Assembly: GCF_011326735.1 (NCBI RefSeq)
Contig: NZ_JAANCN010000019.1
Location: forward strand, 1 to 44,230
Length of the DNA stretch: 44,230 bases
Source of the DNA: Phycicoccus endophyticus
GTDB lineage: Bacteria; Actinomycetota; Actinomycetes; Actinomycetales; Dermatophilaceae
Direction of reading: 5' to 3'
Position numbers and translations under genes: made by a program. Numbering within the stretch: position 1 is the stretch's first letter; the number at the start of each line of letters is the position of its first letter. Of the stretch, positions 7,268-26,630 are shown piece by piece. The notes under the pieces are model-generated. The model saw only the letters and a program-made list of their open reading frames with translations. It was not told where the DNA came from and searched no databases.

Positions 7268-8692
7268 GTGTTCAGCTCCGCTGACGAGGTCCTCGCCTTC
7301 ATCTCGGCCGAGGACGTCAAGTTCGTCGACATCCGGTTCTGCGACCTGCCAGGCGTCATGCAGCACTTCAACGTGCCGGCGGCGACGGTCGACAAGGACT
7401 TCTTCACCAACGGCCAGATGTTCGACGGGTCCTCGATCCGCGGCTTCCAGGCCATCCACGAGTCCGACATGAAGCTCATCCCCGACCCCACGACCGCCTA
7501 CCTCGACCCCTTCCGGGACGAGAAGACCCTCGTGATGAACTTCAGCATCGTCGACCCCTTCACCGGGGAGCCGTACGGCCGCGACCCGCGCAACATCGCC
7601 GCCAAGGCCGAGGCCTACCTGAAGTCGACCGGCATCGCCGACACCGCGTTCATGGGCGCCGAGGCCGAGTTCTACATCTTCGACGACGTCCGCTTCGAGA
7701 CCAAGCAGAGCGCCGGCTACTACTTCATCGACTCCGTCGAGGCGGCCTGGAACACCGGCCGCGCCGAGGAGGGCGGCAACCGCGGGTACAAGACGCGCTA
7801 CAAGGGCGGCTACTTCCCCGTCCCCCCGGTGGACCACTTCGCCGACACCCGCGACAAGATCTGCCTCAACCTCGCCGAGGTCGGGATCGAGGTCGAGCGC
7901 AGCCACCACGAGGTCGGCACCGCGGGCCAGCAGGAGATCAACTTCCGGTTCAACACCCTGCTCTCGGCCGGCGACGACATCATGAAGTTCAAGTACGTCG
8001 TGAAGAACACCGTCTGGGGCCTGGGCAAGACCGCGACCTTCATGCCCAAGCCGATCTTCGGTGACAACGGCTCGGGCATGCACACCCACCAGTCGCTGTG
8101 GAAGGACGGCGAGCCGCTGTTCTACGACGAGCGCGGCTACGGCGGCCTCTCGGACCTCGCCCGCTGGTACATCGGTGGCCTGCTCAAGCACGCCCCCGCC
8201 GTGCTCGCCTTCACCAACCCGACGGTCAACAGCTACCACCGGCTGGTCCCCGGCTACGAGGCCCCCGTCAACCTCGTGTACTCGGCCCGCAACCGCTCGG
8301 CGTGCGTCCGCATCCCGATCACCGGCGACAGCCCGAAGGCCAAGCGCATCGAGTTCCGCGTCCCGGACCCCTCGAGCAACCCCTACCTGGCGTTCGCCGC
8401 GATGCTCATGGCCGGTCTCGACGGGATCAAGAACCGGATCGAGCCCCCGGAGCCGGTCGATAAGGACCTCTACGAGCTGCCGCCGGAGGAGCACGAGTCG
8501 ATCGAGCAGGTCCCGGGCTCGCTGCCGGCCGTCCTCGACGCGCTCGAGGCCGACCACGAGTTCCTCCTCGAGGGCGACGTCTTCACCGAGGACCTGATCA
8601 ACGCCTGGGTCGACTGGAAGCGCACCAACGAGGTCGACCCGATCCGCTTCCGCCCGCACCCGCACGAGTTCGAGATGTACTTCGACATCTGA
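7268..8692 (+). CDS. glnA: Type I glutamine synthetase
   Basis: Cytoplasmic glutamine synthetase, 474 residues, making glutamine from glutamate, ammonia and ATP as a dodecamer. Visible motifs: DGSSIRGF (53-60), metal and glutamate site residues in [10 protein letters not shown] (129-138), [10 protein letters not shown] (267-276), the ATP-site segment [10 protein letters not shown], and the adenylylation loop with Tyr402 in DKDLYELP, so GlnE control is likely. The GTG start at 7268 has a strong AGGAGG seven bases upstream. It is preceded by a complete GlnR box. The last 26 bp of the coding sequence plus 5 bp after the stop are duplicated at 9749-9779, marking an integration site; the gene itself stays intact. 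Confidence 0.98.
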
Positions 8693-8697
8693 TCGAC
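8667..8697 (+). repeat. attL-like direct repeat in the glnA 3' end
   Basis: 31-bp sequence encoding the final residues of GlnA and its stop codon, repeated exactly at 9749-9779 (period 1,082 bp). Interpreted as the left junction of an integrated element, whose core regenerates the glnA tail. The integrase fragment ends 27 bp inside. Confidence 0.85.
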
Positions 8698-8699
8698 TC

Positions 8700-8734
8700 G
8701 ACGCCCTGACCTGCGGAACGTGGGTCAGGGCGTC
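8700..8734. terminator. Hairpin after glnA, inside the element
   Basis: 12-bp perfect stem (8700-8711 with 8723-8734) and an 11-base loop. It lies 8 bp after the glnA stop and holds the stop codon of the convergent integrase fragment in its right arm. It could now terminate both genes. No T-run follows, as is common in high-GC actinobacteria. Confidence 0.6.
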
Positions 8735-9096
8735 GATGTTTCCGCGGAAGTGTCCGCGCGACGAGCCGCGAATGCCGCACCTACGGCGTCGCGGCTCTTG
8801 TCGTCGGTATCGGGGAACATGTGGCCGTAGGTGTTCAGCGTGGTGACCGCCGACGCGTGCCGCATCCGGGTCTGGACGGTCTTCACGTCGAGCCCAGCCG
8901 CGATGAGCAGAGACGCGAACGTGTGGCGCAGGTCGTGGAATCGGAGGCCGGCCGGCAGGCCCGGCACGCTGTCGCGAGCATCGCGCACGGCGCGCTCGAC
9001 CACCCAGGGGCCGAGCACCTGGCCGGCCTCATCGACGAGGAACGTCTCACCCCTATCGGCGTAGGCGGCAAGCACCAGCGCGAGGTCCCGCTGCAC
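8725..9096 (-). pseudogene. Truncated tyrosine recombinase/integrase (C-terminal catalytic part)
   Basis: 123 codons from a GTG at 9096. Keeps the second half of a phage-type integrase catalytic domain: HDLRHTFAS (54-62, His54 and Arg57), MRHASAVTTLNTYGHMFPD (78-96) with His80 and the nucleophile Tyr90. The N-terminal arm- and core-binding domains and the segment carrying the first catalytic Arg are absent; intact relatives are about 350-400 residues. Upstream the same frame enters an unrelated membrane-protein frame across a TGA, so the break is probably a deletion junction near 9097. Recombination activity is not expected. Confidence 0.88.
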
Positions 9097-9462
9097 TCAA
9101 CTGGGAGCGTTGAGAAGCTGGTCAACTTCGGCATCCGCGCACTCTGACCCTTTGATGCTGCGGCAGGCATCCTTCATCTCGAGCCACCGCTCCTCGCGCA
9201 GGTCCCCCTGGGGATCAGGGGGCCGCCAGGACGGCACGTTGGGGTAGGCGCACCGAAGCCACTCGTCGTACGCCGTCTGCGTGGCGGTATCGGTTGCATA
9301 CGCGTCGGGCTGGTCCCCGCACCCGGTCGCGGGTTCCATGCGCCCGGTCCCGGCAGAGTCAGCGGTAGACGCAAACCAATTGAACGCGCCGACCACGACC
9401 GCCAGCATCGCCACGCCCACCAGACCTACCCACAGACGCTCCCGCAGTTCGGCCCAGCTCAC
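9097..9462 (-). CDS. Small membrane-anchored protein of unknown function (element cargo)
   Basis: About 121 residues from GTG 9462; earlier in-frame starts are GTG 9480 and TTG 9492. A basic/amphipathic N-terminus (SWAELRERLW) is followed by one membrane helix (roughly residues 10-32) and then an outward-facing domain with three Cys (in TGCGDQ, RCAYPNV, DACRSI and a fourth in SECAD), which could form disulfides. I recognise no family. Its TGA is directly followed, in the same frame, by the GTG of the integrase fragment. The coding potential is reasonable but the start is uncertain and the gene may itself be a remnant. Confidence 0.5.
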   Translation of the reverse strand: MSWAELRERLWVGLVGVAMLAVVVGAFNWFASTADSAGTGRMEPATGCGDQPDAYATDTATQTAYDEWLRCAYPNVPSWRPPDPQGDLREERWLEMKDACRSIKGSECADAEVDQLLNAPS

Positions 9463-9748
9463 CTCGCCATGGTGCCTCACCGAACGACGCAATGCGCCCG
9501 GTTGAACAGACCCCCCGAGGGCGACGACTAGCCAAGGTCGGTGTGCGCAGTCCCCGCGCTGGAGCAGCAGCGCGGCGCGACGTCAGCCCAGCTCGAGGTC
9601 TCCAATGGGCAGACGCTGACCCGTGTTTCCGTGAAGTGTCCGTGCCACGTTCCAGTCACAACCAACGCCGGCCATTGCCCGCAATGGTGTTTCCGCAGTT
9701 CAGGGCGCTACGGCCATCGACGACCAACGCCCACAATCAGGCACGGGC
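9463..9748. other. Non-coding right part of the element with attP-like repeats
   Basis: No convincing gene. GTGTTTCCG occurs at 9623-9631 and again at 9687-9695; a related TGTTTCCG stands near the other end at 8737-8744. At 8737-8758 and 9624-9644 the similarity extends to TTTCCG-n-GAAGTGTCCG. A 7-bp inverted repeat (9672-9678 with 9681-9687) abuts the third copy. Repeats flanking an att core resemble integrase arm-binding sites. Confidence 0.45.
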
Positions 9749-9779
9749 AGTTCGAGATGTACTTCGACATCTGATCGAC
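9749..9779 (+). repeat. attR-like direct repeat (second copy of glnA 3' end)
   Basis: Exact 31-bp copy of 8667-8697, including codons for FEMYFDI and the stop. This is inferred to be the original chromosomal end of glnA, now separated from the gene and next to the ancestral terminator. Confidence 0.85.
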
Positions 9780-9794
9780 GCCGTACCCGGCGCC

Positions 9795-9825
9795 GGGGCG
9801 CCTCCGCTGCGAGCGGAGGCGCCCC
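9795..9825. terminator. Displaced ancestral glnA terminator
   Basis: 13-bp perfect GC stem (9795-9807 with 9813-9825), 5-base loop. It starts 16 bp after the right repeat, the spacing expected for the terminator of glnA before the insertion. It may now also end the convergent thioesterase transcript (stop at 9842). Confidence 0.75.
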
Positions 9826-9841
9826 GCGCTCGTGTGGCCGG

Positions 9842-10627
9842 TCAGCGTGGGCGGACCGTGAGGCACTGGGCCAGCGTGCCCAGCGGGCCTTGCGCGTCGT
9901 GCAGGCGGCTGCTCGTCAGGCCGACCCCGGTGGCGCCGAACGAGACCGAGGTGTCGACCCCGAGCCACTCCCCGACCGGCTCGCGCAGCAGGTGGGCGGT
10001 GAGGTCGACGTTCGGGAAGTGCACGCGCTCGGGGTCGGCGCGCACGGTCATCCCGTTGGCGATGTCGAGCAGCCCGGCGAGGCGTGCCGTGGCACCCACC
10101 GGCTCCCCCGCCACGAGCGGCAGCGGCGTGCGCACCCAGAACCACCCCCGGCCCGGCTCCTCGAGGTGCCGGCGCACCTCGACCGAGCGGATGAACCCGC
10201 CCGGCCAGGTCTCGGCGGGGACCCACGCCGAGAGCTCCTCGGGGCGCGGGATCGAGGGCAGGGCACTTCCGGCCACGGCGGCGGCGTCGCGCTCGGCGAG
10301 CAGCCAGGCGCGCAGCGTCGCGACCGTCCGCCCGGCGTGCGCCAGCGACGCCTCGACGAGCTCGATGGTCCGGCCCGGCCGGAGCACCCGGACCGCGGTG
10401 TCGACGACGTCGACCGGCACGGTGCCGAGGATGTCGTAGGAGAGCCGGGCGAGGACGAGGCGGTCCTCCCGGCGGGCGGCGTGGTCGCGCTCCACGAGGT
10501 GCGCGAGCAGGCCGAGGGCCGGCGCGATGTGCTGCTCGTCCTCCCGCCACGCGCCACCGGTGTGCTCGGTGGCGCGCAGGCGCGTCTCGTCGAGCCGTTC
10601 GAAGTACGCCGTGCTGGTCTCACCCAC
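9842..10627 (-). CDS. Thioesterase family protein (double hotdog, acyl-CoA thioesterase-like)
   Basis: A 261-residue protein of the thioesterase-like superfamily with two hotdog halves. The N-terminal half holds GGAWREDEQHIAPALGLLAHLVER, the first helix of the fold, and LARLSYDILGTVPV followed by VRVLRPGRTIELVEASL, typical of TesB-like and 4HBT_3 proteins. The second half includes GLLDIANGMTVRADPERVHFPNVDLTAHLLREPVGEWLGVDT, with a probable catalytic Asp in the VDLTAHL stretch. Substrate, likely an acyl-CoA, cannot be read. GTG 10627 is supported by TAGGGT 6 bp upstream. Divergent from the zinc dehydrogenase gene. Confidence 0.82.
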   Translation of the reverse strand: MGETSTAYFERLDETRLRATEHTGGAWREDEQHIAPALGLLAHLVERDHAARREDRLVLARLSYDILGTVPVDVVDTAVRVLRPGRTIELVEASLAHAGRTVATLRAWLLAERDAAAVAGSALPSIPRPEELSAWVPAETWPGGFIRSVEVRRHLEEPGRGWFWVRTPLPLVAGEPVGATARLAGLLDIANGMTVRADPERVHFPNVDLTAHLLREPVGEWLGVDTSVSFGATGVGLTSSRLHDAQGPLGTLAQCLTVRPR

Positions 10628-25797: not shown

Positions 25798-26630
25798 GGT
25801 ATGCACAGGGTCGCACGAGGCGCGGCCTGCAGCCGCATCTTGCCGATGGGGTTGCCGCACGACTCGCAGGTGCCGTAGGAGCCGTCCGCGATCCGCTCCA
25901 GGGCGCGCTCGGTCTGGTCGAGCATCTCCCGGGCGTTGTTGGCGAGCGAGATCTCCTGCTCGCGCTCGTAGGTCTTGGCCCCGGCGTCGGCCTGGTCGTC
26001 ACCCGCGCCGTCCCCCGAGTCGCGCAGGAGGTCGACCAGGTCGGAGGCGGCGTGCGCGAGCTCCTCGCGCAGCTGGACGACGTCGCGCTCGAGCTCGGTG
26101 CGCACGGAGCGCAGCTCTGCCGCGGTCCACGGCGACTCGTCCTGGCGCACGACGAGGGATGACGCCGGCACCGACGCCCGCCCGGGCTTCCTCGCCGAAG
26201 CCTTCGTCGTCGACGCCTTCGTGGCCGCGGTCTTCTTCGCCGTGGACTTCGTCGCCGCGGCCTTCGTGGCCGTGGACTTCGTCGTGCCAGTCTTCTTGGT
26301 CGCGCTCTTCGTCGTCGCGGACTTCTTGGCCGCGCTCTTCGTCGCCGCGGACTTCTTGGCCGCGCTCTTCGTCGCTGTGGACTTCGTCGCCGCGCTCTTC
26401 GTGGCCGCGCTCTTCGTCGCTGTGGATTTCGTCGCCGCGCTCTTCGTGGCCGCGCTCTTCTTGGCCGTGGACTTCTTCGCCGTGGACTTCGGGGCCGCGG
26501 CCTTCGGCGTCGTCGTCTTCGCCGCCGACGGCGTCGTCGACGTCTCCCCCCGACCGGTGGCTCGCCGCGCCGTCGCGGCCGCCCTGGCTGTCGTCTTCTT
26601 CGCGGCGGACAGGGCCCGCTTCACCACCAT
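25770..26630 (-). CDS. TraR/DksA zinc-finger protein with histone H1-like N-terminal repeats
   Basis: 286 residues in two parts. Residues 1-150 are almost only Lys, Ala, Thr and Ser, with about twenty pentads of KSAAT/KKSTA type (38-143), like the basic tails of histone H1 and mycobacterial HupB. Residues 165-286 form a DksA-like coiled segment (WTAAELRSVRTELERDVVQLREELAH) and a C4 zinc finger with Cys255, Cys258, Cys276 and Cys279. DksA-type proteins bind RNA polymerase; the basic tail should bind DNA or RNA. ATG 26630 begins the conserved MVVKRA. A possible -10 TATCCT (26685-26690) and a small 7-bp leader hairpin (26655-26673) lie upstream. Located between divIVA and lspA. Confidence 0.9.
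   Translation of the reverse strand: MVVKRALSAAKKTTARAAATARRATGRGETSTTPSAAKTTTPKAAAPKSTAKKSTAKKSAATKSAATKSTATKSAATKSAATKSTATKSAAKKSAATKSAAKKSATTKSATKKTGTTKSTATKAAATKSTAKKTAATKASTTKASARKPGRASVPASSLVVRQDESPWTAAELRSVRTELERDVVQLREELAHAASDLVDLLRDSGDGAGDDQADAGAKTYEREQEISLANNAREMLDQTERALERIADGSYGTCESCGNPIGKMRLQAAPRATLCIPCKTSQERR
26202..26519 (-). repeat. In-frame degenerate 15-bp repeats coding Lys/Ala/Thr/Ser pentads
   Basis: About twenty 15-bp units inside the TraR/DksA-like gene; on the plus strand they read as variants of GTCGCCGCGCTCTTC. Some neighbouring units are almost identical, which makes strain-to-strain length variation likely. Confidence 0.8.

Follow-up and report, generated by a model that had tools for sequence, protein, structure and literature searches.

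A probable remnant of an integrative element at the 3′ end of glnA in Phycicoccus endophyticus, and a glnA-linked tyrosine integrase clade in actinobacteria

The glutamine synthetase gene glnA of Phycicoccus endophyticus (7268..8692, + strand; an open reading frame, ORF, with Gln-synt_N and Gln-synt_C matches) is followed by 1,082 bp of DNA which are very probably the decayed remnant of an integrative element from a glnA-specific tyrosine-integrase clade, a clade defined in this analysis. The gene lies in the window, that is, the whole stretch of 44,230 nucleotides analysed (contig NZ_JAANCN010000019.1, genome G000; G and L numbers designate genomes and loci). The last codons of glnA form the left attachment (att) core: an exact 31-bp repeat spanning the final codons and the stop (attL, 8667..8697, + strand) recurs at 9749..9779 (attR, + strand), 1,082 bp away start to start. 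The original prediction, made from the letters of the window, had proposed both this repeat and the use of the glnA 3′ end as an integration site, and both proposals held: about 1e-7 exact 31-mer pairs are expected by chance in a window of this base composition, an element of another genome of the family (G083) sits at the same place, and the clade is mostly linked to glnA. A 100-base query from the glnA tail found the 9749-9779 copy as its sole other match in the genome, where the 21-bp core of the repeat occurs twice and the tail has no further copy.

The truncated tyrosine recombinase expected beside one repeat was recognized at 8725..9096 (− strand) as the C-terminal catalytic third of an integrase, matching PF00589 (profile positions 111-168 of 172, E 4.6e-10, 40 bits for a cut-off of 27.1) and phrog_1 (E 9e-18). 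It aligns to the final third of the full-length relatives, beginning at alignment column 282 of 449, and is 53-59% identical over 111-135 residues to the best five of the eight full-length integrases read beside glnA, which are themselves 55-76% identical to that of the congener G001. The fragment keeps the catalytic HxxR, H and Y but has lost the box-I region with its catalytic Arg and everything N-terminal to it; the window copy thus lacks the complete catalytic set and the N-terminal domains of a working enzyme and has probably lost its activity. The integrase ORF ends 33 bp past the end of glnA, convergent to it. Integrase similarity (at least about 50%), convergence on the glnA 3′ end and a copy of the gene tail at the far end, the features by which the clade was delimited, are all present in the window.

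Both ends of the remnant align with the 11.4-kb element of G083, its best match: identity is 78% over approximately 430 bp at the attL end (partly glnA), and the attR end matches the right end of the G083 element at 73% over 177 bp. Because of this homology at both ends, the 1,082 bp appear to be an element reduced to its ends. A less GC-rich interior had also been proposed; this stands with respect to the downstream DNA (0.66-0.70 inside the element, 0.73-0.78 downstream) but not with respect to glnA, which is alike (0.64-0.69).

Apparently unoccupied sites were found in the same genus, as the original prediction required. Searching 58 genomes with glnA DNA gave a match in 57 of them and revealed a second tail copy in G001, 9.7 kb from glnA. 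In the apparently unoccupied congeners G002, G003, G008, G010 and G011, a hairpin-like sequence (judged by eye) lies directly after the glnA stop, and the sequence past attR aligns with the post-glnA hairpin of an unoccupied congener both in the window's genome (with G009) and in G001 (with G011). The native glnA hairpin of the window, delimited by inverted-repeat search, folding and the G009 alignment (9794..9826, + strand), now stands 1.08 kb from the gene; the region 9780-9840 folds at -49.9 kcal/mol (z -5.65 vs. shuffles). G006 and G007, which belong to the genus too, carry arm-like sequence 3′ of the gene, where tblastn found no integrase.

Just 3′ of glnA in L039, L043 and L047 (G006, G007 and G017), short palindromic relics were seen, each an arm-like stretch with its inverse and with no integrase found; these are probably scars of earlier elements.

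Second copies of the glnA tail near a full-length integrase were likewise found in relatives, 6.4 to 88.9 kb apart. The 21-bp core was present in 101 of 186 family genomes and in two copies in 11. The second copies of G009 and G116 are glnA tails at contig ends; in the remaining nine genomes the pairs are 1.1 (G000), 6.4, 9.7, 10.2, 11.4, 21.1 and 88.9 kb apart, or split over contigs (G027, G128). The pair stands beside a glnA-linked integrase in G001 (9.7 kb), G089 (6.4 kb), G109 (10.2 kb), G190 (21.1 kb, integrase 1.2 kb from glnA) and G121 (88.9 kb), and further pairs measured 11.2 kb in Serinicoccus, 10.4 kb in Haloactinopolyspora, 8.4 kb in Streptomyces mexicanus and 15.3 kb in S. parvulus. 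A further search for core pairs took in 49 genomes (L080 absent); its strict pattern matched no site in 31 of them, so that the att pairs measured in it come from the others.

The link between the clade and glnA was quantified in the best 80 of 418 genome loci from an integrase-similarity search, to which the first counts below refer. The query had been built from eight glnA-linked integrases, and its sources make up 7 of the 80 loci (L067, L068, L083, L088, L089, L130, L135). Convergent glnA ends lay at most 300 bp from the integrase match in 63 loci (64 with L082, in which the tail is at a contig end) and glnA was 1.1-4.4 kb away in 7 more; leaving out the query sources, 58 of 73 were within 300 bp, 6 at 1.1-4.4 kb and 9 without glnA. 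Within the family, close integrases (at least 50% identical) were at glnA in 18 of 18 places from 17 genomes, one of them at about 1.4 kb (8 of the 18 places are query sources; 10 of 10 without these), vs. none of 6 distant integrases (35-39% identical; within a flank of about 1.5 kb). In a class sample of 394 genomes the figures were 10 of 11 for near integrases (L249 and L256 also counted among the family 18; L272 partial) vs. 0 of 8 for distant ones, and the glnA tail was found in 0 of 73 distant viral-contig loci. Had full-length relatives been tied to another att site, the original prediction would have failed; they are mostly at glnA, with a few beside other genes.

Several results weigh against a clade strictly tied to this site, or against the place of the window in it. 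No glnA was found within the fetched flank in 9 of the 80 loci, two of which (L107, L117) would lie approximately 8 and 12 kb from glnA provided that the contigs are the same. Five others of the 9 (L108, L124, L137, L143 and L145) face a different gene as their nearest convergent ORF (PmbA/TldD-type, nucS, glyoxalase, Mem_trans and AbiEii), and one near integrase of the class sample (L267, 62.7% identical) has no adjoining glnA. In the integrase tree (91 rows, partial integrases L137 and L140 left out) the glnA label does not form one clade: it needs 13 changes, 8 of them forced by starred branches, a result that is perhaps partly due to counting “far”, “none” and “viral” separately. The window fragment fills 33% of the tree columns and its branch has no support. 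Lastly, the middle of the remnant (approximately 9014-9620) has no match in G083. Some of the loci without glnA may reflect changes of target: in Leucobacter tardus (L124, 7125-7817) a gap of 42 bp separates a clade integrase from the 3′ end of nucS, and in a Frankiaceae metagenome-assembled genome (L108) one of 45 bp separates another from the PmbA/TldD-type gene; because of these short gaps, switching of clade members to the 3′ ends of other protein genes looks likely.

Integration can be pictured as follows. The attP of the element would carry a copy of the glnA end, and the integrase would recombine it with the chromosomal glnA tail, probably at the core AGATGT-ACTTCG-ACATCT. The glnA reading frame would stay intact, its last codons, stop and hairpin now coming from the element, and the original end with its hairpin would be displaced to the far side as attR; int lies convergent to glnA, a few tens of bp off, with paired probable arm sites between the two. 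The ancestor was probably an element of about 10 kb, phage-satellite-like, such as that of G083, and an internal deletion would have taken the integrase N-terminus together with the genes for excision, replication and packaging, so that the two ends and a single small ORF remained.

The inner core is a 6-bp inverted repeat with a 6-bp spacer; short inverted repeats around a 6-bp spacer are typical of tyrosine-recombinase cores. In G231, G249 and G255 the paired cores have different stop codons, as expected if the element supplies one copy, and strand exchange is therefore suggested to lie before the glnA stop. Two observations complicate this placement. In G190 (Phycicoccus elongatus) the core copies differ at the third-last codon, inside the presumed spacer: the glnA-side core encodes Tyr, and the displaced copy and the cores of two genomes of the same genus encode Phe. 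Because of this difference, and because the two congeners have the attR form, exchange in G190 was probably at or before the third-last codon, and the Tyr/Phe difference would be a residue change made by integration. Secondly, TGATCGA follows the core in 6 of 9 presumed attR copies (G000, G001, G027, G083, G089, G121) vs. 13 of 103 other core copies (Fisher p 0.0007), an excess which the simple crossover model leaves unexplained; either the integrase would prefer hosts in which TCGA follows the stop codon, or strand exchange would be less simple than assumed. As a candidate target, a tRNA gene was rejected: ARAGORN found zero tRNA genes in the window.

The att-like repeats of the original prediction are borne out by paired motifs at both ends of the remnant. 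At 8738..8758 the paired arm-type sites GTTTCCGCG..GTGTCCGCG, found by reading the sequence and by repeat search, read GTTTCCGCGGAAGTGTCCGCG and are the counterpart of the AGTCCGCA sites of other attL regions; at the right end, reading of the sequence gave arm-like sites GTTTCCGTGAAGTGTCCGTG (9625..9644), where the end aligns with the right end of the G083 element, and a third arm-like half copy (9689..9697). The layout recurs: of 65 attL regions, 64 from genome loci and the other from a viral contig, 51 have AGTCCGCA within 200 bp of the glnA stop on its 3′ side, where 0.6 would be expected, and 34 have TGACCTGC there, where 0.5 would be; in 23 the first 70 nt past the stop fold with z below -2. 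These ratios overstate independence, the controls being mononucleotide shuffles and the loci being related. By eye, AGTCCGCA often comes in pairs, approximately 11 bp start to start. The window attL has TGACCTGCG and then a variant arm pair 12 bp apart, a form shared with Serinicoccus and G083. The AGTCCGCA pairs and the variant pair are probably arm-type integrase sites, those at 8738-8758 being putative binding sites for the integrase N-terminal domain.

Between the glnA stop and these sites lies an element-borne hairpin (8698..8736, + strand) with a 14-bp perfect stem, found by inverted-repeat search and folding and with similar sequence in G083; the region 8690-8750 folds at -37.1 kcal/mol (z -5.6 vs. 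shuffles). It is likely to act as a substitute terminator between the convergent glnA and int. Within 8600-9900 no U-tract terminator was called, neither hairpin qualifying, and no sigma-70 promoter was called either. The small membrane gene of the original prediction exists as an ORF (9097..9492, − strand), possible cargo of no known family, with one hydrophobic stretch seen by eye; it matched neither Pfam nor PADLOC, and no relative was found in the 186 family genomes beyond the window's own. The host might have domesticated the remnant, retaining this hairpin as the transcription end of glnA or the ORF as a useful membrane-type protein. The position of the hairpin directly 3′ of glnA, its z value and the frame of the ORF, stop-free over 161 codons, would agree with this. 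However, the hairpin fits ordinary attL anatomy equally well, a terminator being required wherever the site is occupied, and the ORF is absent from the other family genomes and has a third-position GC (0.78) below that of glnA (0.99) and the downstream gene (0.96). Domestication is unlikely.

It is decidedly unlikely that the 1.08 kb are a still-mobile, non-autonomous mini-element moved by the glnA-type integrase of a superinfecting element. The identical 31-bp cores, the arm-like repeats at both ends and the presence, in 17 of 186 family genomes including congener G001, of glnA-type integrases with matches below 1e-130 would allow it; but the leftover third of an integrase gene fits plain decay, the confinement of the small ORF to one genome leaves no second copy that would show mobility, and in the window's own genome no glnA-type integrase matched with E as low as 1e-70. 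That the repeat arose by segmental duplication or by an assembly error, unrelated to integration, is extremely improbable and was rejected: the assembly does consist of 21 contigs, and in G009 contigs end at glnA, but distinct element DNA with an integrase fragment separates the copies, both ends match the intact G083 element and the architecture recurs at glnA in 64 of 80 loci.

Among the intact glnA elements, that of G083 encodes the integrase, an HTH_17 excisionase-like protein, PrimPol and D5 helicase, PASTA and DUF3800 proteins and a terminase small subunit; four of its proteins were scanned for defence genes, and none was found. The G001 element encodes replication-initiation-like, tape-measure-like and excisionase-like proteins. 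A terminase small subunit (phrog_1496) is also present in the Serinicoccus, Haloactinopolyspora, Humibacillus and S. parvulus elements, five elements counting G083. The 10.2-kb element of Janibacter Soil728 encodes an excisionase, primase, HNH protein, large terminase, portal, protease, scaffold, major head protein and head closure protein, with no tail gene recognized among the 10 proteins scanned. The same head module is found in IMG/VR contig L065, which reaches a glnA-type core and in which no tail gene was recognized among 8 proteins scanned. The Serinicoccus element (L227:10427-11919) carries as cargo the two components of PDC-M03, a candidate system of anti-phage defence, its neighbouring proteins corresponding to PDC-M03A and PDC-M03B. 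From their gene content, the 6-15 kb glnA elements appear phage-satellite-like. Core spacings of 21.1-88.9 kb and an FtsK/SpoIIIE-like protein, found among the scanned elements only in the 15.3-kb one of S. parvulus, suggest that other element types also use the site.

The hosts of the clade include Intrasporangiaceae, Geodermatophilaceae, Micromonospora, Streptomyces, Micrococcaceae, Nocardioidaceae, Jiangellaceae, Promicromonosporaceae and one Mycobacterium, and the broad host range that had been predicted holds for the clade, which spans many actinobacterial families; for single elements it has to be qualified. Distances between integrases and between GlnA proteins are correlated (Mantel r 0.67, 0 of 1000 permutations, 58 loci with full-length GlnA at most 350 bp from the integrase, tree outlier L139 left out) and core copies carry host-type tail variants, not always letter for letter; because of both, individual elements probably pass mainly between close relatives, broad as the clade is. 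Transfer between families is indicated as well, since the P. elongatus integrase nests in a group otherwise from Nocardioidaceae (support 100/99). No close integrase matching over most of its length was seen among the best-ranked phage and plasmid records: the top match in 50,697 phage records spans 92% of the integrase with 30% identity, pieces at 60-80% identity occurring in 47 lower-ranked records, and the best-ranked match among plasmid records is 31% identical over 92%. This lineage therefore seems to be scarcely represented in collections of isolated phages.

The closest precedent, from the accessible part of PMC4482086, appears to be the dusA integrases, a tyrosine-integrase family dedicated to one housekeeping gene and used by prophages and islands of varied size and content. 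As in the glnA elements, the island re-supplies the end of the gene, and there are 21-bp semi-conserved repeats. In contrast, the dusA family inserts within dusA, at the 5′ end (PMC4482086), whereas the insertion described here is in glnA, at the 3′ end and in actinobacteria, and glnA elements re-supply C-terminal codons, the stop and often a hairpin. In the helper-embedded phage-inducible chromosomal islands (HE-PICIs), as far as the available text of PMC10111431 goes, phage satellites of one integrase clade also target protein-coding genes repeatedly, clades are unified by attB use, and half-sites near attP may bind integrase arm domains; unlike them, the glnA elements rebuild the gene. Head genes without a recognized tail gene link the Janibacter Soil728 element and L065 with capsid-forming PICIs (own capsid, portal and terminase without tail genes) and candidate mycobacterial PICIs, including the PICI-like phiRv1/phiRv2 (available text of PMC10690885, PMC10654092). 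The mycobacterial PICIs with tyrosine integrases that are drawn there differ in using tRNA genes, and the window remnant is without head genes. Actinomycete integrative and conjugative elements (AICEs) are similarly actinobacterial, with tyrosine integrases, and the S. parvulus element shares an FtsK/SpoIIIE-like protein with them; according to the accessible part of PMC3218068, the vast majority of tyrosine-integrase AICEs are in tRNA genes. A translocase was found in S. parvulus only, vs. a terminase small subunit in five scanned elements, and the AICE set of FtsK/TraB-type translocase, Rep and Int is not present in the window remnant.

No description of glnA as an attachment site was found among the literature matches listed, a weak absence, since supplementary tables and island databases (TIGER/Islander may list such islands) were outside its scope. 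The word glnA does not occur in the available text of PMC4482086, PMC10111431, PMC10654092, PMC3218068, PMC10023795 (actinobacterial prophages) or PMC12884075 (Integrase-On-Demand), nor the word glutamine in that of PMC10690885 (Streptomyces satellites). The glnA site and its integrase lineage across actinobacteria are apparently undescribed so far. The window copy itself is an ordinary stranded remnant, and its value is that of a pointer to a conserved site and an integrase lineage. With it, actinobacteria gain a protein-gene attachment site conserved across the class and marked by a recognizable integrase and attL layout, through which small satellite-like elements can readily be located and bounded. 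The lineage is also a source of candidate enzymes for site-specific vectors in, for instance, Blastococcus, Micromonospora, Arthrobacter and Janibacter. It may tentatively be proposed that phage satellites of actinobacteria dock at the glnA 3′ end throughout the class, served by one integrase lineage and with an attL grammar that recurs (glnA stop, TGACCTGCG, paired AGTCCGCA); every insertion would swap the last codons, stop and terminator and place a convergent int, so that satellites might tune glutamine synthetase output. The site also lends itself to testing for an influence of satellites on the central nitrogen enzyme in whose gene they dock.

In Tetrasphaera australiensis (G220; C1:3146486, 4120087, 4221915) two identical integrase copies were observed, each by a copy of glnA, in opposite orientation and approximately 1.08 Mb apart, together with a third core copy. 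Both have internal stops in the matched stretch, and the doubling is either a duplicated region or an assembly effect. Elsewhere in the window, a tandem array with periods of 15, 30 and 45 bp and up to 23.6 copies (26179-26532) is probably a repetitive coding region.

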